Below, in pieces: positions 44,046 to 56,614 of a DNA stretch of 64,000 nt. The DNA lies in NCBI RefSeq assembly GCF_006874475.1, contig NZ_VIRM01000037.1, forward strand, positions 1 to 64,000, in the 5' to 3' direction. The notes below the pieces were generated by a model. It was not told where the DNA came from. It searched no databases and worked only from the letters and a program-made list of their open reading frames with translations. The stretch comes from Microbispora hainanensis (GTDB taxonomy: Bacteria; Actinomycetota; Actinomycetes; Streptosporangiales; Streptosporangiaceae). The translations under genes and the position numbers were made by a program. Numbering within the stretch: the first letter of the stretch is position 1; the number at the start of each line of letters is the position of its first letter.

Positions 44046-44151
44046 TTCGCTCGTCGCCCAACGGGGAGGGCCGTGCCCTCCCATGCCCGTGGGCGACACG
44101 GCTCCTCCACGCCCGGGACGGCGAGACATCACCGGTCTCCATGGAGGTGTC

Positions 44152-47100
44152 GTGTCGAAGAAGCCCCCACCTGCCTACGTACGGACCACAGCCGTCGTCG
44201 TCGGCCTCGGCCTCGTGACGGCGATGATCCCGGCGGCCTCCGCCGCCGCGGACCCCACTCCCACCCCGTCGCGGTCGTGGAGCGCCACGGCCGTGCCGGA
44301 CGCCGAGCGCGTGCAGGGCGCCAAGTCGGACAGCGGCCGGCTCGCCAAGAGCGACGCGGCGCTGCTCGCGTCGAAGTCGCCGGCGCGGACGAGCGTCGTC
44401 GTGAAGCTCGACTACGACGCGCTCGCGGCCTACAAGGGCGGCCTGCCGGGGCTCCCCGGCACCAGCCCTTCGGTCACCGGGAAGTCGCTCAACCTGAAGA
44501 GCGGCGACGCGGCGAAGTACCAGAAGCACATCGAGGGCATCGAGAACACCTTCCTCGGCGAGCTGGGCAAGAAGATCCCCGCCGCCGCGGTGGGGCAACG
44601 GCTCCGCACGGTCTACGGCGGCATCGCCCTGACGCTGCCCGCCGACAAGGCCGCCGACCTGCTGCGGCTGCCCGGCGTGGCGGCCGTGCAGGAGGACAAA
44701 CGGGAGCAGCCGCTCACCGACTCCAGCCCCGCGTTCATCGGCGCGACCACCGTCTACGACCAGCTCGGCGGCGCGAAGTCGTCGGGCAAGGGCGTCATCG
44801 TCGGCATCCTGGACACCGGCGCCTGGCCGGAGCACCCGTCGTTCGCCGACCCGGGAACGCTCCCGGCTCCCCCGCCGAAGGCCGACGGCACCCCGCGTAC
44901 GTGCGACTTCGGCGACAACCCGCTGACCCCGGCGGCCGACCCCTTCGCGTGCAACCACAAGCTGATCTCCGGCGAGCCGTTCCTGGAGACGTACAACGCG
45001 GTGGTCGGCGGGGAGGTGTACCCGGACAGCGCCCGTGACTCCAACGGCCACGGGACGCACACCGCCTCGACGTCGGCGGGCGGGCCGGTCGACCACGCCA
45101 ACCCGCTCGGCATCGACCGCGGGGCGATCCACGGCATCGCGCCCGCCGCCCACGTCGCGGTCTACAAGGTCTGCGGCGCGGAGGGCTGCTACCAGTCCGA
45201 CTCGGCGGCCGCCGTGGCGCAGGCGATCGCCGACGGCGTACGGGTGATCAACTTCTCGGTGGGCGGCGGCGCCGACCCCTACAGCGACCCGGTCGAGCTG
45301 GCGTTCCTCGACGCGTACGCGGCGGGCGTGTTCGTGTCGGCCTCGGCGGGCAACTCGGGACCTGACGCCGCGACGACCGACCACCGCGGCCCGTGGGTGA
45401 CCACGGTGGCGGCCTCGACGCAGAGCCGCACCTACCAGTCGACGATCACGCTGACCGGCGGGCCGTCGATCAAGGGCGCGTCGATCACCCAGGGCGTCGC
45501 GTCGCCGCTGCCCGTGGTGCTCGCGTCGGCCCCGCCGTACAACGACCCGCTGTGCGTCAACCCGGCGCCTCCGGGGCTGTTCACCGGAAAGATCGTCGCC
45601 TGTGAGCGCGGCCCCAACCGGGTGCTCAAGGGGTTCGCGGTCAAGCAGGGCGGCGCCGCGGGCATGATCCTCTACAACTCCTCGCCGCTCGACGTCATGA
45701 CCGACAACCACTGGCTGCCGGCCGTGCACATCGACAAGCCGGAGACCGACGCGCTGCTCGCCTGGCTGAGCACGCACCCGGGCGGCACGGCGAGCTTCAC
45801 CCAGGGCGTGAAGAGCACCTGGCAGGGCGACGCGATGACGACGTTCTCCTCGCGCGGCCCGGGCGGCGACTTCCTCAAGCCGGACGTCACCGCGCCCGGC
45901 CTGCACATCCTGGCGGGCACCACCCCGACCCCCGAATCGCCGCTGGAAGGTCCTTCGGGCAACCTCTACCAGGTCATCGCGGGCACCTCGATGTCGTCGC
46001 CGCACGTCGCGGGCGCGGGCGCGCTCGTGTTCGCGCTGCACCCCGACTGGACGCCGGGCCAGGTCAAGTCGGCCCTGGAGACCACCGCCACGACCAAGGT
46101 CACCAAGCAGGACCGGACCACCCCGGCCGACCCGTTCGACTACGGCGGCGGCCGCATCGACCTGACCAAGGCGGGCGACGCGGGCCTGACCCTCGACGAG
46201 ACCGCGGCCGGCTACGCCGCCTCGGCCGCCGACCCGCTGAACCGGATCGACCTCAACCTCCCGTCGGTCAACGCGCCCGTCATGCCGGGCGTGATCAGCG
46301 CCAAGCGCACGCTCGTCAACGCGACCGGCAAAACGCTGGTCTACACCGCGACCGGCACGACCGTCAGCGGGGCGAACATCACCGTGCTGCCGCCGCTGTT
46401 CACGGTCAAGCCGGGCAAGAGCCAGAAGATCACGATCCTGATCACCGCGCCGGACCTGCCCGACGGGCAGTACTTCGGTCAGGTGAACCTCAAGCAGGTC
46501 GGCGGCAAGCGGGAGCAGCACCTCCCGGTGGCCTTCTTCCGGCAGGAGGGCGACGTGCCGATCGATCAGACCTGCGCCCCGAGCACGATCACCAAGAACA
46601 CGGGCGCGTCCACCTGCACGGTCACGGTCCAGAACAACACGCTGGAGGACGCCGACGTCACCGCGCTCAGCACGCTGGACGCGAAGCTGCGGCTCACCGG
46701 CGTCACGGGCGCGACCAAGATCGGCAGTCAGATCGTGACGACCAGGAGCACGCTCCCGGGCAAGCAGCCGGACAAGCCGGGCATCGCCCCCGGCGCGACC
46801 CCGGCCGGCTACCTGCCGCTCGCGGCCTTCGGCATCGCCCCCATCCCCATCGGCGACGAGGAGGCGCTCAACTTCACCGTCCCGGCGTTCACCTACGCCG
46901 GCCGCACGTACACCAGGATCGGCGTCGTCTCCGACGGCTACACGGTCGCGGGCGGCACGAACGGCTCGGCGGACATCCAGTTCGCCCCGCAGACGCTCCC
47001 CGACGCCGCGCCGCCGAACGGCGTGCTCGCGTCGTACTGGACCGACCTGAACGGCGAGGGCGCCCCCGGCGTCTACGTCGCCAGCCTGACCGACGGGGTG

Positions 47101-47481
47101 AACAGGTGGCTCGTGGTCGAGTGGCAGGTCTACCTGTACGGCACGAACAGCCTGAAGGTCTTCCAGCAGTGGATCGGGCTCAACGGCACCGAGGACATCT
47201 CGTACGCCTACGACCCGGGCAACCTGCCCGGTGACCCGGGGGCGGCCTACGGCCTGACCGTCGGCGCCGAGAACGCGGACGGCACCGCGGGCAGCCAGAT
47301 CAGCGGCCCGCCCACGCAGGACTACCGGATCACCAGCACGCCGGGCGCCCCCGGCGGCACGCTCACCTACTCGTTCACGGTCAAGGGCGTGTCCTCGGGC
47401 ACCGGCACCGTCACGACCGGCACCTCCACTCCCCAGGTGAAGGGCATCACGGTCGAGGTCGACAAGATCACCGTTCAGTAG
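44152..47481 (+). CDS. secreted S8 family serine peptidase (subtilase) with PA and C-terminal beta domains
   Basis: 1109 residues from GTG 44152 (ggagg 4 nt upstream). A signal peptide (VVVGLGLVTAMIPAASAAA) precedes an inhibitor-I9-like propeptide. The catalytic triad is Asp in GILDTGAWPEH (~220), His in NGHGTHTAS (~299) and Ser in GTSMSSPHVAGA (~612). A protease-associated insert (around residues 440-550, KQGGAAGMILYN) and Fn3-like and jelly-roll-like C-terminal domains follow. It degrades extracellular proteins. It ends 18 bp before a strong terminator shared with the convergent kinase gene. Confidence 0.94.
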   Translation: MSKKPPPAYVRTTAVVVGLGLVTAMIPAASAAADPTPTPSRSWSATAVPDAERVQGAKSDSGRLAKSDAALLASKSPARTSVVVKLDYDALAAYKGGLPGLPGTSPSVTGKSLNLKSGDAAKYQKHIEGIENTFLGELGKKIPAAAVGQRLRTVYGGIALTLPADKAADLLRLPGVAAVQEDKREQPLTDSSPAFIGATTVYDQLGGAKSSGKGVIVGILDTGAWPEHPSFADPGTLPAPPPKADGTPRTCDFGDNPLTPAADPFACNHKLISGEPFLETYNAVVGGEVYPDSARDSNGHGTHTASTSAGGPVDHANPLGIDRGAIHGIAPAAHVAVYKVCGAEGCYQSDSAAAVAQAIADGVRVINFSVGGGADPYSDPVELAFLDAYAAGVFVSASAGNSGPDAATTDHRGPWVTTVAASTQSRTYQSTITLTGGPSIKGASITQGVASPLPVVLASAPPYNDPLCVNPAPPGLFTGKIVACERGPNRVLKGFAVKQGGAAGMILYNSSPLDVMTDNHWLPAVHIDKPETDALLAWLSTHPGGTASFTQGVKSTWQGDAMTTFSSRGPGGDFLKPDVTAPGLHILAGTTPTPESPLEGPSGNLYQVIAGTSMSSPHVAGAGALVFALHPDWTPGQVKSALETTATTKVTKQDRTTPADPFDYGGGRIDLTKAGDAGLTLDETAAGYAASAADPLNRIDLNLPSVNAPVMPGVISAKRTLVNATGKTLVYTATGTTVSGANITVLPPLFTVKPGKSQKITILITAPDLPDGQYFGQVNLKQVGGKREQHLPVAFFRQEGDVPIDQTCAPSTITKNTGASTCTVTVQNNTLEDADVTALSTLDAKLRLTGVTGATKIGSQIVTTRSTLPGKQPDKPGIAPGATPAGYLPLAAFGIAPIPIGDEEALNFTVPAFTYAGRTYTRIGVVSDGYTVAGGTNGSADIQFAPQTLPDAAPPNGVLASYWTDLNGEGAPGVYVASLTDGVNRWLVVEWQVYLYGTNSLKVFQQWIGLNGTEDISYAYDPGNLPGDPGAAYGLTVGAENADGTAGSQISGPPTQDYRITSTPGAPGGTLTYSFTVKGVSSGTGTVTTGTSTPQVKGITVEVDKITVQ

Positions 47482-47546: not shown

Positions 47547-49064
47547 TTAGTCGGCGAGAGCGATCTGGGCGCGTACGGCGGGGCTGAGCCCGGCCAGGAG
47601 GCGGGCGGCGCGGCCGTCCGTGGTCGCCCGGAGCAGGGCCGCTGTGATCGGCGGCGGCACGTACTCCAGCACCTGCCGGGCCCGCCGGGTCGTCATCGCC
47701 TCGACCAGCCGGACCGCGGCGGGGGTGACGCCGAGCGCGTTGAGGATGTCCGCGGCGACCCGGTCGGGGATGTCCGCAAGGATGCTCGCGCCCCGGCTCG
47801 CGGGCAGTCGCCGCAGCAGCGCGGCCGCGCCCGCCGCAGTCATCTGGCCGACCACCCGCCCGGCGTGAGCGGACGGCAGCAGGGCCAGCACACCGGCCGC
47901 CCGGGACGGATCTTCGACCATCGCGTCCAACGCCTGCCCGGCGGCGGCCGGCGCCATCACGGCGAGCGCCTCGGCGGCACGGCGTAGATCGGCGGCACTG
48001 GGTAGATCGGCGGCACCGGGATCGGCCGACCTGCGTAGATCGGCGGAGCCGGGTAGATCGGCGGAGCTGGGTAGATCGGCCGGGCTGCGTAACGAGGAAG
48101 CCGGCCGCGGCGGCGGAGGCTCGGGACGCGGCCTCTCCACCGGTTGCTCCGGACGCGCTCCCTCATGCCGCGGTCGCTGGACGCGCGGCTCCAGACGCGG
48201 CGTCTCCTGCCACGGCCTCTCCTGCCACGGTCGCTGGACCCGCGGCTCCGGACGCGGCGGGGTGGCGATCGCCGCCAGCCTGCGGTCGAGTTCGGCCGCC
48301 CCCGTCCGGAGAGCGGGGTCCTTCCTGAGCAGCCCGGCGATCACGTCGTACAGCGGCCCGGGACGGCGCGGCGGCGGAAGCTCCTCGGCGCAGACGGCGT
48401 GCGCGGTCGCATAGGCGTTGTCCCGCCGGAAGGGCGAGTGGCCCTCCAGCGCGCAGAAGAGCGTGACGCCGAGCGACCACAGGTCGGCGGCGGGTTCCAC
48501 CGCCCGCCCGTCGATCCGCTCCGGCGCCATGAACTCCGTGGTGCCGAGCATGATGCTGTGCGAGGTGAGCCCGCTCTCGCCGGCGATCTGCGCGATGCCG
48601 AAGTCGACGAGCACCACCTTTCCGCCGGGGCCCACCAGGATGTTGGCCGGCTTCACGTCACGGTGCAGCACGTTCGCGGCGTGTGCGGCCGTCAGCCCGG
48701 CCAGCACGTCGCGTCCCAGGACGGCGATCTCACGCTCGGACAGCGTCCGCCGCCGGATCAGGTCGTCCAGGGAGCCGCCTTCGACGTGGACCATGACGAT
48801 CCACGGCGAGCCGCCCTCCTCGAAGACGTCGTAGATCTCGGCGATCGCGGGGTGCTTGATCCGGGCCAGCGACCGGGCCTCGCGCAGGGCCCGCGCCCGC
48901 TGGATCTCGATCCCCTCGCCGTACGGCGTCAGCAGGACCTCCTTGAGCGCGACGAGCCGGCCGAGCCTCTGGTCCATCGCGAGCCAGACCGTGCCCATGC
49001 CGCCGCGCCCGAGCTGGGTCCGCAGCTCGTAGCGGCCCTTGATCACCCGTGCGTCAGTCGTCAT
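47547..49064 (-). CDS. Ser/Thr protein kinase (PknB-like) with repeat linker and MgtE_N-like helical tail
   Basis: 505 residues. The kinase domain spans about 1-265: LGRGGMGTVW, Lys41 in ALKE, HRDVKPANIL (134-143) and DFG (154-156), all intact. No transmembrane helix is present, unlike PknB. A Pro/Arg-rich linker and a repeated (S)ADLPS/G hexapeptide (about 325-365, DNA repeat) lead into a helical C-terminus (365-505; ALLPSAHAGRVVGQM, RRLPASRGASILADIP, VLEYVPPPITAALLRAT) resembling the MgtE N-domain/FliG-like solenoid. It overlaps the upstream DUF4407 gene by 11 bp and should act with it. Confidence 0.9.
   Translation of the reverse strand: MTTDARVIKGRYELRTQLGRGGMGTVWLAMDQRLGRLVALKEVLLTPYGEGIEIQRARALREARSLARIKHPAIAEIYDVFEEGGSPWIVMVHVEGGSLDDLIRRRTLSEREIAVLGRDVLAGLTAAHAANVLHRDVKPANILVGPGGKVVLVDFGIAQIAGESGLTSHSIMLGTTEFMAPERIDGRAVEPAADLWSLGVTLFCALEGHSPFRRDNAYATAHAVCAEELPPPRRPGPLYDVIAGLLRKDPALRTGAAELDRRLAAIATPPRPEPRVQRPWQERPWQETPRLEPRVQRPRHEGARPEQPVERPRPEPPPPRPASSLRSPADLPSSADLPGSADLRRSADPGAADLPSAADLRRAAEALAVMAPAAAGQALDAMVEDPSRAAGVLALLPSAHAGRVVGQMTAAGAAALLRRLPASRGASILADIPDRVAADILNALGVTPAAVRLVEAMTTRRARQVLEYVPPPITAALLRATTDGRAARLLAGLSPAVRAQIALAD
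47984..48088. repeat. 18-bp tandem repeat encoding the kinase linker
   Basis: Five 18-bp units beginning gtagatcggc and one 15-bp unit encode the repeated ADLPSS/ADLPGS hexapeptides of the Ser/Thr kinase linker. All copies are in frame. Confidence 0.92.
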
Positions 49065-50481
49065 CGGGCAGCAGCTCGACGCCGCCGGGGCGCTCGGCGC
49101 CGGTCCGCGGCACCCGCATGGTCCTGCCGTCCGGCATCCGCCTCAGTTCCTGGTCTTCCATCGAGTCGTACACGTCGGTCTCGCCGGCGGTCTCCCGGAG
49201 GGTGTCCCCGAGCCTCTCGGCGCGGGTTCCGGTGGGGCCCCGGTGCGCCGAGCCGTCCTCGGGGAGGGTGACGACCGGCTGCGGGCCGGTCTCGCCCGTA
49301 CGGGACCAGATGCGCCAGAGGTCCTGCGAGCGGCCCGCGGGCGACGCGGGCGTCCCGGAGCCGCCCATGCCCTGGGAGGCGAAGGCGCCCTGCGCGGCGA
49401 AGGTGCCCCGAGCGTCGCGGAACTCGTGCTTCTCGGCCAGCGCGAGGACCTTCTCGTAGTTGCCCGGCCGCTGCATCAGCTTGATCGTGACCGGCAGGCA
49501 CTCGATGAGGAGGAACAACAGGAACAGCAGCAGGCGGGTGACGCCGAGGCTGCTGTCCTTGCCGGTCACCTCGTTGAGCGCCTGGATGCGGATGAGCAGG
49601 CCGTTGGTCGCCATGTTCTCCGCGTCGAAGGTCGCCTGGAGGTCCGCCTGCCGCTTGATCCCGGCGGCGAGCAGCTCCTTCGCCTTGGGCAGGGCCTCCT
49701 TCGCGCTCGCGAGGCGGGCCTGCTTGGCCTCCTCGCTGCCGGCGTCGAGCTCCCGCTTCCGGTCCTCGATCTGCCGGTTGATCAGGTCGATCCGCCGTTT
49801 GTCCTTCTCGTACGCGCGCCGGCTGTCCTGGGCGAGAGGACCGTCGCCCTTCTTCGGGCACGACGGCCCTCCGTAGAGCTGGCACTGCCACTCGCCGTAG
49901 TGCTTGTCGGCCAGTTTCTGCTGCCTGGCGCGCTCGGCGGTCAGCGCCTTGATGTTCGGGTCCTGCTCGGTGTCGATGGGCACGTCACCTCCGGAGGAGA
50001 TGACTTTTTCCAGGCCCGCCACCTCTTTGCGGAGCTGGCCGACGTCCTTGCCGACGTTGCCCTGCTGCTGCTGCGCGGTGAACGCGTCCGCACGCCGCTG
50101 CTTGATCTGGACAATTTGGGCATCGATTTCCGACCTGAAGATCTGGAGCACTAATGGCGTGGAGATGACGAACCCGAGCAGAAGCGCCATGAGAATGCGC
50201 GGAACGGCCAGCGGCCAGCGGCGCGGGGCGTCCGCCTTCATCGTGCTGACCAGCCAGCGGTCGAGGCTCAGGATCATCAGGCCCCATACCAGCGCGGCGA
50301 GGACGGCCAGGACGACGTTGACGCCCAGGGCGCTGTTGAGGGCGAACGTCATCGAGACGACCGCGAGGACGGCCGTCGTGAGCACGGCGCCGCCGATGCC
50401 CTCGAACTTCCCATACTCGCTCGGACACCGTTCGAGCACTTCGGGCCGCGCTCCGGACAGCGCGATCAGAAACCGCCTCAT
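49054..50481 (-). CDS. DUF4407 family membrane protein
   Basis: 475 residues; gaggagaagc precedes ATG 50481. Two hydrophobic pairs near the N-terminus (AVLTTAVLAVVSMTFALN, VVLAVLAALVWGLMILSLD) and a third helix (ILMALLLGFVISTPLVLQIF), then a long coiled coil (about 120-300) with a CQLYGGPSC pair, and a fourth helix (LLLFLLFLLIECLPVTIKLM). This is the DUF4407 layout. The function is unknown. It is the first gene of the kinase transcript and is divergent from the vWA/GTPase operon. Confidence 0.88.
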   Translation of the reverse strand: MRRFLIALSGARPEVLERCPSEYGKFEGIGGAVLTTAVLAVVSMTFALNSALGVNVVLAVLAALVWGLMILSLDRWLVSTMKADAPRRWPLAVPRILMALLLGFVISTPLVLQIFRSEIDAQIVQIKQRRADAFTAQQQQGNVGKDVGQLRKEVAGLEKVISSGGDVPIDTEQDPNIKALTAERARQQKLADKHYGEWQCQLYGGPSCPKKGDGPLAQDSRRAYEKDKRRIDLINRQIEDRKRELDAGSEEAKQARLASAKEALPKAKELLAAGIKRQADLQATFDAENMATNGLLIRIQALNEVTGKDSSLGVTRLLLFLLFLLIECLPVTIKLMQRPGNYEKVLALAEKHEFRDARGTFAAQGAFASQGMGGSGTPASPAGRSQDLWRIWSRTGETGPQPVVTLPEDGSAHRGPTGTRAERLGDTLRETAGETDVYDSMEDQELRRMPDGRTMRVPRTGAERPGGVELLPDDD

Positions 50482-50699
50482 GCTTCTCCTCGCCTACGCG
50501 CACATATTGGAACGTGGCATAACGCTCGAGACTCGGGCTATCGTAGATCACCGCCGTAAGATTGCGGGAAACCGAGAACGATTCGACGCAACGACACAAC
50601 AAGAACCCTACCGTTATGACAAGTCGTCTTTTCGTTGTTACCCGCAAGTTCGGATAAAGGGGGACGTGGGCGACGAATAGGACAATAAACGGAGGATCC
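50482..50699. promoter_or_regulatory. divergent promoter region of the kinase and GTPase operons
   Basis: A 218-bp gene-free interval, clearly richer in A+T than its surroundings. Ribosome binding sites flank it on both sides (gaggagaagc leftward, ggagg rightward). Possible -10-like hexamers occur (ggataa near 50655, gacaata near 50681), but no -35 partner or operator could be fixed with confidence. Confidence 0.4.
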
Positions 50700-52124
50700 G
50701 TGTCAGAGCCCGACAAGGCTCTGCTTCGCAAGGCCGTCGCCCGAGCCGTTGCGGGGCTCACCGCCACCGGCCGCCTCACGATCGTCGAGGTCGCCGCCGA
50801 CGGCATGACCGTTTTCCGCATCCACCGGGACGACAACGGCAGACCTCGCTGCCATTACTGGTCGTCGTCATGGGAGGACCTGACCTCGGAGCAGGGGTGG
50901 GGGCACGAGTCCTCCCGGCCGGCCGTGCTCCGGGCCGCCGACCCGTTCTCCGCCGACGAGGTCGTCCTCGTCTGCTCGTTTCCCGAGGGCGCCGAGGCCG
51001 ACCGGGCGCTCGCCTGGCTGAGCGAGGCGCGGCCCGCCGCCGTCCTCCCCTCCGACGGTCCGGTCACCGCGATCGTCGAGGATGTCCTGGCCTCCGACCC
51101 GCTCACCCGGTCGTACGACCTGGTCGTGCTGCGCGCCGACCACGCGAGCGGGCGGCTGCGGCTGGGCAGCAAGCAGCTGTTCCCGATCGGCGCCCTTCCC
51201 GGGACCAGGGCCGAGGTGGCCGTCCGCTGCGAGCCCGGCGACGCGTACGGCACCGCGTTCGCCGTGGTCACCTGGCAGGGCCGGGAGCCCAGGCTGCTGT
51301 CGGTGCACAGCGCACGGCTCGCCCCCGGCAGCTACCTGCTGACGGCCGAGCTGGTGCGGCCGGGGAAGGTGCGGTTCGGCGGCGTGCCCGAGCTGACGCG
51401 GGACCCGCGCGGCTGGGACGACCTCGTGGCGGCGGCGCCGGCACAACTGCCGCCCAGGGCCGGGCCGGCACACCTGATCTGCGCGGTGGAGGTGTGCGGG
51501 CCGGACGCGAAGGTCGAGGAGCGCCTGAGCCGGGTGCGTCAGATGGTCAGTCATCTGTCCGCCGAGCTCGCGGACCTCCTGCGGGTCTCCCTCGTGACGT
51601 ACGGCGCGCACTCGTACGACGACCGGTCGGCCGGAGAGCATCCGGTGGAGGTCGCCGCGTGGCAGGTCACGCCCGAGCGCGCGCTGGCCGCCCTGGAGTG
51701 GCTGGAGGAGCGCGGCGCGATCACCGAGGGATACCCCTACTATCCGCACGCCGCCCAGGTGGAGGACATGCTGGACGCGGTGGCCCGGCGCCTGTCGACG
51801 GCGGAGCGGGTGCGCACGGTCCTGCTCACGGTCGGCGACCGCCCGCCGCACCCGGCGCGGACGAACCGGTCGCTGATCCTGCCCTGCCCGCGGCGGCACG
51901 ACTGGCGGTTACTCGTGGGCCGCGTCCAGGGCCGGCCCGACACCCTGCTCGCCGCGATCTGCGACCGCGAGGACACCTCCCCGCACCCGGTCTGGCGCCG
52001 GCTCGGCGCGGACGCGCTCGCCCATCTCGACGCCCTCGACATCCGGGGGCTCGCCGCCGACCTGGGGCTGGCCGCGCCCGCCGCCCTTCCCATCCCGTTC
52101 CCCCTCCTCGACGAGACGGAGTGA
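50700..52124 (+). CDS. vWA-like protein in a GTPase operon
   Basis: 474 residues from GTG 50700, 4 nt after ggagg. No firm family assignment. The central part (about 255-400; HLICAVEVCGPDAKVEERLSRVRQMV, LRVSLVTYGAHSYDDR, ERVRTVLLTVGDRPPHP) follows the order of strands and helices of a von Willebrand A domain, but the DxSxS metal site is degenerate (VEVCG). The N-terminal 250 residues form beta-rich segments of unknown kind. Its stop overlaps a possible GTG start of the GTPase, so the two are translated together. Probably a scaffold or adaptor. Confidence 0.6.
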   Translation: MSEPDKALLRKAVARAVAGLTATGRLTIVEVAADGMTVFRIHRDDNGRPRCHYWSSSWEDLTSEQGWGHESSRPAVLRAADPFSADEVVLVCSFPEGAEADRALAWLSEARPAAVLPSDGPVTAIVEDVLASDPLTRSYDLVVLRADHASGRLRLGSKQLFPIGALPGTRAEVAVRCEPGDAYGTAFAVVTWQGREPRLLSVHSARLAPGSYLLTAELVRPGKVRFGGVPELTRDPRGWDDLVAAAPAQLPPRAGPAHLICAVEVCGPDAKVEERLSRVRQMVSHLSAELADLLRVSLVTYGAHSYDDRSAGEHPVEVAAWQVTPERALAALEWLEERGAITEGYPYYPHAAQVEDMLDAVARRLSTAERVRTVLLTVGDRPPHPARTNRSLILPCPRRHDWRLLVGRVQGRPDTLLAAICDREDTSPHPVWRRLGADALAHLDALDIRGLAADLGLAAPAALPIPFPLLDETE

Positions 52125-52132
52125 GACCCGAC

Positions 52133-53119
52133 ATGCAGTCCGACCCGGCGCAGGGACCACCGGCCCACGACATCGCCATGTGGGGCGCCCCCGGCAGCGG
52201 CAAGACCACGCTGCTGGCCGCCCTGAACATCGCGTTGATGCGGCGGAAGGACGAATGGAAGATCGTCGGCTCCGACGCCGCCTCGTCCGACTACCTCATC
52301 GAGAGGACGAACGCACTGTCGAGCGGGAAGATCTTCCCGGAGGCGAGCCAGAGCCTGGAGCACTACCGATGGACGCTCGTCGGGCCGGCCGAGCGGCAGG
52401 AGCGCCGGTGGCTCCGCAAGGCCCGGCCCACCCCACCGCTGACGATCGGCATCAGCATGGTCGACGCGCCGGGCGGTCTGTTCAGCGCGGGCCCCCTCCA
52501 CACGGCGAACGGCTCCGGGGTCGCCGACGACCTGCGCCGCCGCCTGATGGACAACCTGGTGAAGAGCCGGGGCCTGGTCTTCCTCTTCGACCCCATCCGG
52601 GAGTTCGAGCTCGGCGACGCCTTCGACCACCTGCACCCGCCGCTCACCCGCCTGGCCGAGAAGATGCTGGAGATCGGAGAGCTGCGCGACGGCATGCTCC
52701 CCCATCATGTCGCGGTCTGCATCACCAAGTTCGACGACCCCCGCGTGCTGGAGACCGCGCAGAAGCTCCACCTGCTCGACTCCGCGCCCGACGACGAGTA
52801 CGGATTCCCCCGGGTGACCAGCGAGGACGCCCGCGACCTGTTCCGGGCGCTGTGCGAGGTGTCCGCGAGCGGCAACGCCGACATGGTCGTCAACGCCCTG
52901 GACCAGTTCTTCCACCGCACCCGCGTCGAGTTCTTCGTCACCTCGTCGATCGGCTTCTACGTGCGGCCGCACACCAAGACGTTCGACTGGAACGACTACC
53001 AGAACCTGCTGCCCGAGGCGGGCAAGGACCTGCGGATCCGAGGGCAGGTCCATCCCGTCAACGTCGTCGAGCCCATGCTGTGGCTCGGCCGGCGCCTCGC
53101 CGCCGGCGGTCCACGGTGA
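52133..53119 (+). CDS. TRAFAC-like GTPase (resembling the double-GTPase 2 family)
   Basis: 328 residues from ATG 52133; GTG 52121, overlapping the previous stop (GTGA), is an equally plausible start. The P-loop GAPGSGKTT is at 18-26, a Walker B/G3 motif is MVDAPGG (109-115), and TKFD (198-201) fits the G4 guanine-specificity motif. The last 110 residues contain FFVTSSIGFYV, a G5-like strand. The gene order matches systems predicted by Aravind and colleagues in which a DO-GTPase2 is coupled to GAP1. The fine family assignment rests on memory, not a search. Confidence 0.75.
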   Translation: MQSDPAQGPPAHDIAMWGAPGSGKTTLLAALNIALMRRKDEWKIVGSDAASSDYLIERTNALSSGKIFPEASQSLEHYRWTLVGPAERQERRWLRKARPTPPLTIGISMVDAPGGLFSAGPLHTANGSGVADDLRRRLMDNLVKSRGLVFLFDPIREFELGDAFDHLHPPLTRLAEKMLEIGELRDGMLPHHVAVCITKFDDPRVLETAQKLHLLDSAPDDEYGFPRVTSEDARDLFRALCEVSASGNADMVVNALDQFFHRTRVEFFVTSSIGFYVRPHTKTFDWNDYQNLLPEAGKDLRIRGQVHPVNVVEPMLWLGRRLAAGGPR

Positions 53120-55407
53120 TCGGTTTCGAGTGGGCGCTGGAGGGCAAGCGCCCCGGCAGCTACGACGAGTACGGCCTGCTGGAGTGGAGCGACGGGCGGC
53201 TCGGCCGTGAGGTGTTCGACAAGCTCAGGCACCGCTACACGGCGAGCACCGCCGGCGACCTGCCCCAGGTGACGATCGGCACCGCGCGGGTCAGCGAGAA
53301 GGGCGAGGTCTCCTACTACCTGGTCCTGGCGATCCGGCAGTGGTCGGGCCACCGCGACTTCGCCGACCGCAAGATCGCCTACACCCGGTGGTTCTACGTG
53401 CCGTACGAGCAGCTCGTCGACCGGCCGGTGTCCTACACGGCGCTCTACACCGCCTTCGCCGCGTTGCCGCTGGAGCCCCGGCCTCCGCTGACCGTGGCCG
53501 TGCCGCCGTACGACCCCGAGGCCATGGCCCCCGGGCCGGACACGCTCTCGGCGGCGGCGCTGCTGCTGAACGGCCGGCCGGTGTGCGTGGTCGGCGCCGA
53601 CACCGTCCCCATGATCGATCGGCTCCGCTTCGCGGACACCGTCGCGGCGCTGCTGCCGTACGGGACGCGGACCAGGTTCACCGCCGCCACCTGGACCAGC
53701 AGCACGAGCGAGCACAGCATCAAGCTGTCGTTCGCGCGCTACGCCCCCGAGGGGGCGCAGACGGTGGTCTGGGGACGCGCGGCCGACGGCGTCCTCGACC
53801 AGACGCCGTCGAAGCTCTGCCACCAGTTCTACGCGCGGTCCGACGTCCCGGCACCGGAGGTGATCGCGAGGCTCGCCCGGCAGACCGAGCCGCTGTCGCT
53901 CGAGAAGCACCGGCCGAAGGTGCTCCAGCTGATCGAGCTGTCCACATCCGCGGCGCCGGAGCCCGAGCCCGAACCGGATCGCTCCCCGCCCGGCCCTCCT
54001 CCCGCCCTGCCCGCCGGGAGCGCGGGCTCGGCGGAGCCGACGGTGGCGTACCGGAACAGCGCGGGAAGCCCCTACATCGAGGCGCTGGCCGACGCGCTCC
54101 CCTACGCACCGGATGTCAGCGCCGCGGTGGAGGACCTGGCGCGCTCGGGCACGGCCCCCACCGCCCGGCCGCACCTCCGGAGGGTGCTGCTCCAGCGCAA
54201 CTGCTTCCGGAGCGTGATCGATCCCCGGAGCGACGCGACCCGGCTCTACGCCCGGCTCGTTGACGCGGCCTTCCCGGCCGAGGAGGTGTGGAACCAATCC
54301 AGCCGCGACGTCGCCGACGCCCTCATCTGCTCGCCGGCCACGCCGGACGCCGTCCGGCACCGGCTCGCCTCCCGCATGGAGACGCCTGTCGTCGAGCACA
54401 AGCGGGGCTGGTGGCCTCCCGGCCGGCGCGTCCGCCAGGCGTTGATCCTGGGCGGCACGTCCGCGCTCGTCGCGGTGGCGGTCGTGGCCGTGTTCCTGAC
54501 CCTGGGCGACGCCGGGGAAACCCCGCAGGAGAGCTTCTCCCCTCCGCCCCTGGCGGTGGTCGTCCAAGCGCCGGACGACCAGCGGTACGCCGCCGAGGCC
54601 TTCGCCGAAAGGCTGCGCCGCGACGGCTATGCCCCCGCCGTCGTGCCGATCGACCCTGCGACCGTCACACCGCCCGTGGGAAAGCCGGCCGTGACCATCG
54701 CGTACGACCTCGACGTCCTCGAGTCGGTCAGCAACGGCCGGCACTCCGGCAGGGACGTACGGGAGGATCTGCGGCAACGGGGCCTCAGTCAGCTGGGGGA
54801 CCTCGGGGTGGCGAGCACCGACGTCCTGCTCGTCAGGGAGGGCGTCAAGCCGCAGCGGTTCCTCGACCGGCCCGGCGAGGACGACGCCATCCTCATCCGC
54901 GACACGATCGGCGACGAGCAGCTACGCGCGCTGACCGACACCGGCCTCCGGCTGACGACCATGCCGGCCCAGGACATCGCACGCCGCTTGGCCGAGCGAT
55001 CCGCCGCCGCCGCGATCGTGCCCGAGAACGTGAGCGCCTTCGAGGGCTACCAGCGCCTGACCCCGGATCTGCCGCTCCCCCGGCGCAGGCTGGTCGTGCT
55101 CGTCAACGACGCGGCGGACGAACCGATACGGCAGGACCTGCTCGAAGTCATCAGAGCACCCGACTTCAGGCGCGCGCCCCAGGGCGACCCCACTCTGGCC
55201 GCGAAGGCACTCGTCGATCGGATCGCCCCAGTGGTGGAGAAGACGGTGGTGACACAGACGCCCGGGGAAGAGCCGGCAAGCGGAGGCTCCGTGCTGTGGA
55301 TCCTCTTCATTGTGGTGGTCGCCCTCTCCTTCGTGGCGGTGGTGCTGTTGATGTGGCGGCCGGCCCGGATCGACGGCACGATCAGCCGGCACCGCCGGCG
55401 ACCGTGA
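53116..55407 (+). CDS. GTPase-associated protein (GAP1-like) with two transmembrane helices and an extracytoplasmic domain
   Basis: 763 residues; GTG 53116 overlaps the GTPase stop (GTGA). The N-terminal part (FEWALEGKRPGSYDEYGLLE, VTIGTARVSEKGEVSYYLVLAI) resembles the GAP1 N-domain, followed by M- and C-like segments to about 430. The first transmembrane helix is ALILGGTSALVAVAVVAVFL (~443-462), the second VLWILFIVVVALSFVAVVLL (~726-745). Between them lie about 260 residues of alternating alpha/beta sequence (VVVQAPDDQRYAAEAFAERL, RRLVVLVND) that look like a ligand-binding fold. This suggests a receptor passing an outside signal to the GTPase. Confidence 0.65.
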   Translation: MIGFEWALEGKRPGSYDEYGLLEWSDGRLGREVFDKLRHRYTASTAGDLPQVTIGTARVSEKGEVSYYLVLAIRQWSGHRDFADRKIAYTRWFYVPYEQLVDRPVSYTALYTAFAALPLEPRPPLTVAVPPYDPEAMAPGPDTLSAAALLLNGRPVCVVGADTVPMIDRLRFADTVAALLPYGTRTRFTAATWTSSTSEHSIKLSFARYAPEGAQTVVWGRAADGVLDQTPSKLCHQFYARSDVPAPEVIARLARQTEPLSLEKHRPKVLQLIELSTSAAPEPEPEPDRSPPGPPPALPAGSAGSAEPTVAYRNSAGSPYIEALADALPYAPDVSAAVEDLARSGTAPTARPHLRRVLLQRNCFRSVIDPRSDATRLYARLVDAAFPAEEVWNQSSRDVADALICSPATPDAVRHRLASRMETPVVEHKRGWWPPGRRVRQALILGGTSALVAVAVVAVFLTLGDAGETPQESFSPPPLAVVVQAPDDQRYAAEAFAERLRRDGYAPAVVPIDPATVTPPVGKPAVTIAYDLDVLESVSNGRHSGRDVREDLRQRGLSQLGDLGVASTDVLLVREGVKPQRFLDRPGEDDAILIRDTIGDEQLRALTDTGLRLTTMPAQDIARRLAERSAAAAIVPENVSAFEGYQRLTPDLPLPRRRLVVLVNDAADEPIRQDLLEVIRAPDFRRAPQGDPTLAAKALVDRIAPVVEKTVVTQTPGEEPASGGSVLWILFIVVVALSFVAVVLLMWRPARIDGTISRHRRRP

Positions 55408-55417
55408 GGAGGAGCGC

Positions 55418-56614
55418 GTGTCCGGCGCGACGGCCGAGGAGCAGGTGACGCAGTGGCTCAGGGCGCGCGCCATACCGCTGGACGGCCTGGCGCCGCTTCG
55501 CATCGCATTGAACGGCGTGCGGGTGGTGGGGCTCGGCGAGGCCACACACGGCAGCCGCGAGTTCTTCCTGATCAGGCACCGGTTGCTGGAGTTCCTGGTG
55601 GAGGAGCTGGGCTTCACGACGCTCGCGGTGGAGGCCAGCGCCTCGGCGTCCCGGGCCGTGGACGACTACGTGCAGGGCGGCTCCGGCGATCCGGTCGAGG
55701 CACTCGCCGGGCTCGGCTTCTGGACGCTGCACACGGCGGAGATGCTGGCGACCGTCGAGTGGCTGCGCGACCACAACCGCACCGCCGCGCGGAAGGTGCG
55801 GTTCGCAGGCGTCGACCCGCAGCATCCGGCGGCGTCGCTGGACGCCCTGCGCGCCCACCTCGGTGCTGCCGCGCGGGACCTGCTCGACCCCCTCGCTCCC
55901 CTCGCCGGAAAGCGCCTGGGCGTCGGCCCACCGCTCGACCGGCGCATCGAGGCCGACGCCCGCCGCCTGGAGGAGTTCCTGACCGGCCGCTCCGCCCCGG
56001 ACGAGGCACTGGCACATGCGCGGATCGTGCGCCAGAACGCCGACCTGGCGAGCCGGCCGTTCCGGCATCCGGATCCCACGCAGACCGTGAGCGTCGCCCG
56101 CGACCGCCACCTCGCCGACAACGTGGATCTGCTCCTGACCGACCCGGACGCCAGGGTCGCCCTCTGGGCCCACAACGGCCACGTCATGAAGGGCGCCCAC
56201 AGCGGCGGCTCGGTGCCCGCGATGGGTCTGCACCTCGGGCAACGACACGGCGAGGCCTACTACGCGCTCGGCGTGCTCTTCGGCGCGGGCCGGTTCCGGG
56301 CCCGCCGGGCACGATTCGGAAAGGTGGACCCGGCCCGGCCCCCGGTCACCTTCCGCGTCCCGCTCGTGCGGAGGCCGACGATCGTGGAGGCCCGCCTCGC
56401 CGCCGCTCATCCCGGTGATCACGTGATCGACCTGCGGAACGGCCCACGGCCGGAGGCCGTGACACGGTGGCTCGGCGAGCCCCTGAACATGCGCGGTTAC
56501 GGCGCGGTGGCGCGGCGGTTCACCTACAGGCTCGGCTACATGCCCACGGTGCTCGCCGAGCACTTCGACGGCATCGCCTTCGTGCCCGAGGTCACCGCTT
56601 CCACCCCGCTGTGA
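55418..56614 (+). CDS. erythromycin esterase-like hydrolase
   Basis: 398 residues from GTG 55418, with gaggaggagcg overlapping the upstream coding end. EreA/EreB-type motifs are present: VVGLGEATHGSREFF with the active-site His, the downstream TTLAVEAS Glu, and VALWAHNGHV. Known members open the macrolide lactone; many relatives have unknown substrates. It lies 10 bp after the GAP1-like gene, so it belongs to the GTPase operon and could be its effector. No export signal is seen, so it acts in the cytoplasm. Confidence 0.85.
   Translation: MSGATAEEQVTQWLRARAIPLDGLAPLRIALNGVRVVGLGEATHGSREFFLIRHRLLEFLVEELGFTTLAVEASASASRAVDDYVQGGSGDPVEALAGLGFWTLHTAEMLATVEWLRDHNRTAARKVRFAGVDPQHPAASLDALRAHLGAAARDLLDPLAPLAGKRLGVGPPLDRRIEADARRLEEFLTGRSAPDEALAHARIVRQNADLASRPFRHPDPTQTVSVARDRHLADNVDLLLTDPDARVALWAHNGHVMKGAHSGGSVPAMGLHLGQRHGEAYYALGVLFGAGRFRARRARFGKVDPARPPVTFRVPLVRRPTIVEARLAAAHPGDHVIDLRNGPRPEAVTRWLGEPLNMRGYGAVARRFTYRLGYMPTVLAEHFDGIAFVPEVTASTPL

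Follow-up and report, generated by a model that had tools for sequence, protein, structure and literature searches.

Gene Organization of the Locus

The window analyzed here is a stretch of 64,000 nucleotides of Microbispora hainanensis DNA. Six genes were found in it on the two sides of a divergent control region, and their coordinates, strands and bases of assignment are collected in Table 1.

Table 1. Features of the divergent gene cluster and its surroundings in the window.
Feature	Position	Strand	Basis of assignment
Ser/Thr kinase, soluble	47547-49064	-	Pfam Pkinase and MgtE_N
DUF4407 membrane protein	49054-50481	-	Pfam DUF4407
Divergent control region, 218 bp	50482-50699	.	Junction read from ORFs
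vWA-like protein	50700-52124	+	vWA by predicted structure only
P-loop GTPase	52121-53119	+	Motifs and profile comparison
GAP1-like membrane protein	53116-55407	+	Weak profile evidence and gene order
Erythromycin-esterase-family enzyme	55418-56614	+	Pfam
Ten flanking genes (beta-lactamase-family, AAA, NMN-transporter, DUF2809, subtilase, TetR, FAD, methyltransferase, PEP-mutase)			Domain matches

GTGA overlaps join the vWA-like gene to the GTPase gene (52121-52124) and the GTPase gene to the GAP1-like gene (53116-53119). A gap of 10 bp separates the GAP1-like and esterase genes, and the kinase and DUF4407 genes overlap by 11 bp (49054-49064). These junctions, the 218-bp gap and the six reading frames agreed with the original prediction. 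Alternative starts were given by the gene caller for the kinase (49046) and the GTPase (52133), each of which would abolish one overlap.

The divergent gap had been described as richer in A+T, and the 1-kb bin that contains it indeed showed the lowest GC content in the window (64.5%). No sigma-70 promoter was detected in the 218 bp by a consensus scan. In all ten aligned divergent gaps from the genus of the window (Microbispora), the element CTATCGTAG at 50538-50546 was invariant; its reverse complement contains TACGAT, a candidate that could act as a -10 box on the DUF4407 side.

Conservation of the Module

For the locus survey, stretches were fetched around matches to the GAP1-like protein or the GTPase, and genes were then called on them. 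The GAP1-like protein matched 14 of 60 genomes, including that of the window and one genome (G011) in which only pieces were found. The GTPase matched 84 of the 297 genomes of the family, and 60 further stretches were picked from these matches. Together with the window, L018-L030 and L071-L130 make up the 74 loci considered, from which L031 and the nine GAP1-N2 loci (L131-L139) were excluded.

The GTPase gene was directly followed by the GAP1-like gene at 69 of the 74 loci, and no adjacent pair was present at the other five (L028, L079, L116, L123 and L130). A vWA gene lay directly upstream of the pair at 66 loci. At 54 of the 69 loci having the pair, a divergent DUF4407 gene stood next to the vWA position; L072 and L120, where vWA, DUF4407 and kinase were all matched and strict adjacency failed, fall outside this count. 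The vWA gene was found without an adjacent divergent DUF4407 gene at 11 loci, mostly distant ones. The vWA protein, DUF4407, the kinase domain and the kinase tail were all in place at 46 loci, and L080 and L081 proved on inspection to hold a full kinase. The apparent loss of the kinase domain at these two loci was rejected as a gene-calling artefact, one long ORF spanning kinase, linker and tail.

A synteny control was performed on 50 loci, 49 from other genera and one (L079) from the genus of the window at a different site. Five of the six module queries were detected at 42 of them, the sixth being the esterase; for the kinase query, a kinase at any position in the stretch would have sufficed. 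None of the ten flanking genes was found at 49 of the same 50 loci, and at least one of them was present at all ten loci of the genus. Because conservation holds for the core but not for the flanks, the linkage is more than chance: the kinase, DUF4407, vWA-like, GTPase and GAP1-like genes form a conserved five-gene module, widely conserved in Microbispora and many relatives. The co-occurrence expected of all six genes held for five, but not for the esterase.

DUF4407 exceeded its cut-off in 16 of the 60 genomes, namely in all 13 with a non-fragment GAP1-like hit and in 3 of the 47 others. In some genomes DUF4407 lies away from the module, as in G030, where several genes intervene. This separation, together with the opposite strands, would suit two unrelated operons that share their control region by chance. 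Such an explanation is highly improbable, given that a divergent DUF4407 gene recurs beside the vWA position at the 54 loci without flanks shared between genera.

At the module site of G011, a genome of the same genus (L028, 7612-8424), only pieces of the esterase, GAP1 and kinase genes are kept amid homologs of nine of the ten flanking genes, which means that the module can be lost.

Additional arrangements were also observed. At L084, L085, L096 and L101, a gene convergent with the GAP1 genes encodes a large protein (906-1094 aa) that is matched by the vWA-protein profile and, in L084 and L085, by the GTPase profile as well; a second mini-system is possible there. At L163, L165, L176, L184 and similar distant loci, the vWA-GTPase-GAP1 genes were accompanied by radical-SAM, coiled-coil-like, tandem AAA+ and Hsp70-like genes, and some of these loci also carry a secreted-looking vWA protein. 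At L174 (389-3061, Dactylosporangium), vWA-like and kinase-like proteins, recognized by eye, surround a PP2C phosphatase (Pfam), an arrangement resembling the third actinobacterial theme described by Kaur et al. (PMC7159879).

Esterase and Flanking Genes

The esterase belongs clearly to the predicted family (Pfam erythromycin esterase, E 1.2e-57). The curated Ere cut-offs were not reached, with 76.5 bits for EreB (cut-off 750), 58.1 for EreD (800) and 46.5 for EreA (750).

The original prediction had placed this enzyme at the end of the pathway, as the output of a six-gene system. Its place immediately after the GAP1-like gene in the window, and nearby in several relatives, fits that role. Against it, the gene was detected at only 7 of the 74 loci, all of them in the genus of the window; among the 67 loci where it went undetected, L028 keeps a tblastn piece. 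Other genes separate it from the GAP1 gene in L021 and L023, L022 holds only a short piece, and it is absent from L024-L026 of the same genus. The esterase as effector was therefore rejected on its distribution and is hardly credible; it is a local neighbor outside the conserved module.

Among the flanking genes, the subtilase (44083-47481 in the window) carries PA and fn3 domains. It adjoins the kinase end of the module in L018, L020, L022 and L023 and lies near the GAP1 side in L024 and L025. PADLOC returned only generic subtilase and methyltransferase matches for the ten flanking genes, and no defence island was found in the window.

Kinase and DUF4407 Protein

The kinase was confirmed as an intact soluble protein with clear Pfam matches (Pkinase, E 5.4e-49; MgtE_N, 9.6e-11; FliG_M, 1.9e-5). 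It consists of a kinase domain (residues 1-265), a fast-changing linker and a C-terminal MgtE_N/FliG_M-like domain (351-505). Compared with ten relatives, identity was 19-34% in the linker and 46-86% in the tail. The tail profile matched 51 of 84 stretches, the tail being conserved along with the module. Under strict patterns, HRD was found in 40, DFG in 45 and VAxK in 45 of 49 module kinases. The kinase domain also matched the PADLOC defence-kinase models PD-T4-6 (best 5.6e-71) and mad6 (2.9e-66), which may be generic kinase matches.

The DUF4407 protein was equally clear in Pfam (E 7.9e-83). Four membrane helices were predicted by hydropathy at residues 29-47, 52-70, 96-114 and 317-335, the third and fourth being joined by a loop of about 200 aa; a C-terminal tail follows. 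The pairing of the two genes, originally noted as an unfamiliar arrangement, emerged from the survey of 74 loci as a conserved partnership.

GTPase

The GTPase contains the motifs GAPGSGKT, DAPGG and TKFD. Relatives in Microbispora catharanthi and M. rosea are 96-97% identical, and the genome of the window holds one match to the module GTPase at E up to 0.001. No family exceeded its Pfam cut-off: AAA_16 came first (0.0013), followed by DO-GTPase1 (0.0055) and DO-GTPase2 (0.0091). DO-GTPase2 reached 16.1 bits, short of its cut-off of 27, and was outscored by AAA_16. The Pfam DO-GTPase2 model matched 34 of 35 GTPase relatives at E up to 0.1, with a best value of 5.1e-8.

A profile of the 35 module GTPases found the GTPases that stand beside GAP1-N2 proteins, with E down to 2.1e-9. 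Direct comparison of the two groups by hhalign yielded 99.4% (E 4.6e-21, 267 columns); the reference GTPases had been chosen by profile and position, without a Pfam scan. The motifs and this comparison uphold the P-loop GTPase assignment, and at the level of sequence profiles the module GTPase is clearly a homolog of those encoded next to true GAP1-N2 proteins.

In the window GTPase, Walker B reads DAPGG and has no glutamate. At the corresponding column, 19 of the 35 module relatives have G and 7 have E; D.AGE occurs in 9 of 12 reference GTPases.

vWA-like Protein

No significant Pfam match was obtained for the vWA-like protein, and its assignment was confirmed through predicted structure only. 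Fold comparison covered model residues 251-460, and the predicted C-half (approximately 251-460) adopts a vWA fold. The metal-site (MIDAS) motif of vWA domains is DxSxS. This site is absent here: E264 was found in 41 and G267 in 42 of 45 sequences, and position 266 is variable.

The N-half (1-250) is Hsp70-like in predicted fold, with a Foldseek E of 5.5e-9 but a TM of 0.18. Its hhalign E values were 0.29-0.68 with DnaK orthologs and 0.017-0.23 with a wider Hsp70 profile, the latter run without a reversed control. Homology to Hsp70 at the sequence level was not established by these comparisons, and only the resemblance in fold was retained. No open-access paper was found that treats Hsp70 and von Willebrand proteins together with a GTPase and anti-phage defence in actinobacteria. 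Profiles of the vWA-like protein, GAP1 and the GTPase retrieved no informative PDB sequences.

GAP1-like Protein and Its Ectodomain

The GAP1-like protein comprises conserved N and M regions (1-222), a helical part up to residue 421, a predicted membrane helix at about 437-463, an ectodomain (476-707) and a second predicted helix at about 725-747. For the fold comparison, model residues 476-707 were used. The ectodomain is predicted to adopt a periplasmic-binding-protein fold between the two membrane helices, closest to the binding proteins EgtU, OpuBC and ProX. The proposal that an outside signal binds this part of the protein fits the modeled fold, although few positions are conserved among 21 ectodomain sequences.

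The window protein had no significant Pfam match. GAP1-N2 (PF20013) matched nothing in the genome of the window and, with E allowed up to 0.5, none of 42 GAP1-like proteins. When the N region was compared with GAP1-N2 proteins by hhalign, E was 0.56, no better than the reversed control (0.51). The M region, aligned with true GAP1-N2 proteins, gave E 0.007 at a probability of 5.5%, versus 0.32 for the reversed control; probabilities in these GAP1 comparisons were low (3.8-5.5%). Pfam GAP1-M matched 20 of the 42 relatives weakly, with a best value of 0.0019 and the window protein not among them, and the next families matched 2. The GAP1-like assignment is tentative and is based on the weak GAP1-M signal of relatives and on the gene order; GAP1-N2 was not found.

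The C-terminus differed among 88 hits: 20 had the ectodomain with both helices, 30 a single helix but no such ectodomain, and 34 no helix. At 15 full-arrangement loci (L082, L084, L085, L086, L088, L090, L093, L095, L096, L099, L100, L101, L111, L113 and L128), the GAP1-like gene is immediately followed by another one, and several of these second copies lack a predicted membrane helix.

Relation to Known Systems

GTPase-centric systems were predicted in 2020. Their defining features are DO-GTPases that carry a glutamate in Walker B, and GAP1 proteins with N, M and C domains; they were proposed to act against invaders by abortive or containment responses (Kaur et al. 2020, PMC7159879). No experimental test of them was present among the matches listed in a search of open-access titles and abstract openings. 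Of 148 genomes in the class, 9 had a PF20013 match, and nine such loci were fetched for comparison.

The window module shares several features with the GAP1-N2 systems as outlined in that work: a homologous GTPase directly upstream of the GAP1-like gene, occurrence in actinobacteria, a GAP1 protein with C-terminal membrane helices and an outside domain, and the kinase, vWA and Hsp70 themes (PMC7159879). In contrast to those systems, it has no detected GAP1-N2, no Walker-B glutamate, a single GTPase and a binding-protein-like ectodomain, and DUF4407 was not found in the main text describing them (PMC7159879). No FNIII domain was detected by Pfam in the six window proteins; the neighboring subtilase carries fn3_6, and the flanks are not common to loci outside the genus. 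The resemblance of the GTPase/GAP1 pair to GTPase-centered conflict systems, as first suggested, was borne out by the GTPase homology. Because the GTPase is homologous but the Walker-B glutamate and GAP1-N2 are lacking, the module is regarded as a divergent branch of these systems, alike in its way of working, and not as a strict member.

A survey of PSP systems predicts a role of the DO-GTPase family in membrane-related stress and cites a YcjX structure (PMC11237479). Judged by that description, the PSP-linked DO-GTPases resemble the module in that a GTPase is proposed to act in membrane stress (PMC11237479); unlike them, the module has no Psp genes recognized among the genes beside the GTPase. 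Unlike EgtU, OpuBC and ProX, the module ectodomain is flanked by two membrane helices and forms one protein with a putative GTPase regulator, and no transporter gene apart from the NMN transporter occurs among the ten flanks.

Streptomyces conservons are small conserved operons with a GTPase in filamentous actinobacteria, and they hold histidine-kinase-like, roadblock and DUF742 proteins. The module is similarly small and conserved in such organisms and likewise encodes a GTPase, but none of those three conservon proteins appeared in the Pfam results for the six window proteins.

Selection, Mobility and Possible Purpose

Relative to L024-L026, identity was 72-73% for the GTPase, 54-67% for segments of the vWA-like protein, 66-73% for the N and M regions of GAP1 and 27-41% for its other segments. 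Ratios of dN/dS were determined in the Nei-Gojobori style with six close relatives. Within GAP1 they amounted to 0.11-0.25 in N+M, 0.39-0.60 in residues 223-421 and 0.35-0.52 in the ectodomain; the GTPase gave 0.14-0.27 and the kinase domain 0.33-0.51. Positive selection was not seen: no ratio exceeded one, and the ectodomain resembled the kinase domain. The ectodomain is fast-changing yet constrained, its ratio is unexceptional, and an arms race gets no support.

The module GTPase had no match in the phage collection and a single one in the plasmid collection (29.5% identity, on a 678-kb Streptomyces plasmid). Mobile carriage was rejected on these records.

These results bear on what the module may be for. 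In an anti-invader system, the receptor would sense a phage-induced change of the envelope and the switch would halt growth or kill the cell. The GTPase homology, the constant core beside a variable GAP1 C-terminus and the kinase matches to defence models, generic as they may be, agree with such a role, as does the described association of GAP1-N2 systems with multicellular bacteria (PMC7159879). The lack of a recognized effector, the selection and mobility results, the absence of a defence island and the flank genes shared within the genus, and so a mostly fixed site, count against it. A role in defence is considered possible but unlikely.

Alternatively, the module might sense envelope stress or solutes and produce a physiological or developmental output, a reading that is plausible though short of even odds. 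The fold of the ectodomain, the purifying selection and the membrane-stress role predicted for DO-GTPases (PMC11237479) are in its favor. The few conserved ectodomain positions are less easily reconciled with it, and a housekeeping function agrees poorly with the patchy distribution of the GTPase across the family. The evidence leans slightly toward this reading over anti-phage defence, and the loss of the module in L028 fits both alike.

Proposed Mechanism and Implications

Whichever purpose it serves, the module is best read, with a probability of roughly 0.6, as a membrane-coupled GTPase switch to which a kinase arm belongs, and as a divergent offshoot of the DO-GTPase and GAP1 systems. The genes present, their conserved linkage and the homology of the GTPase are demonstrated, and the folds and membrane helices are predicted. 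For the switch itself, we infer the following course of ligand sensing, partner contacts and signal direction. The GAP1-like protein would be the receptor, its ectodomain meeting an outside ligand or perturbation. Its N and M regions, taken as cytoplasmic, would relay the change to the GTPase and reset it, and the Hsp70-fold/vWA protein would scaffold the complex or hold a client peptide. DUF4407 and the kinase, on the divergent transcript, would form a second envelope-linked arm that sets a threshold or provides feedback by phosphorylation. No effector was recognized in the conserved unit.

New here are the predicted binding-protein fold of the GAP1 ectodomain, a vWA domain without its metal site and an N-half that is Hsp70-like in fold only. 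Tentatively, and with less confidence than the switch itself, the module may represent a new class of transmembrane receptor-GTPase, in which a binding-protein sensor fused to a GTPase regulator is combined with an Hsp70-derived vWA adaptor and the DUF4407/kinase arm. If true, DUF4407 would act at the membrane as the partner of the kinase, whose tail is MgtE_N/FliG-like. The module gives DUF4407, which three of the open-access papers searched mention by name, a definite genetic context, and a compact branch with a recognizable ectodomain makes the question of what these GTPase switches sense a testable one.
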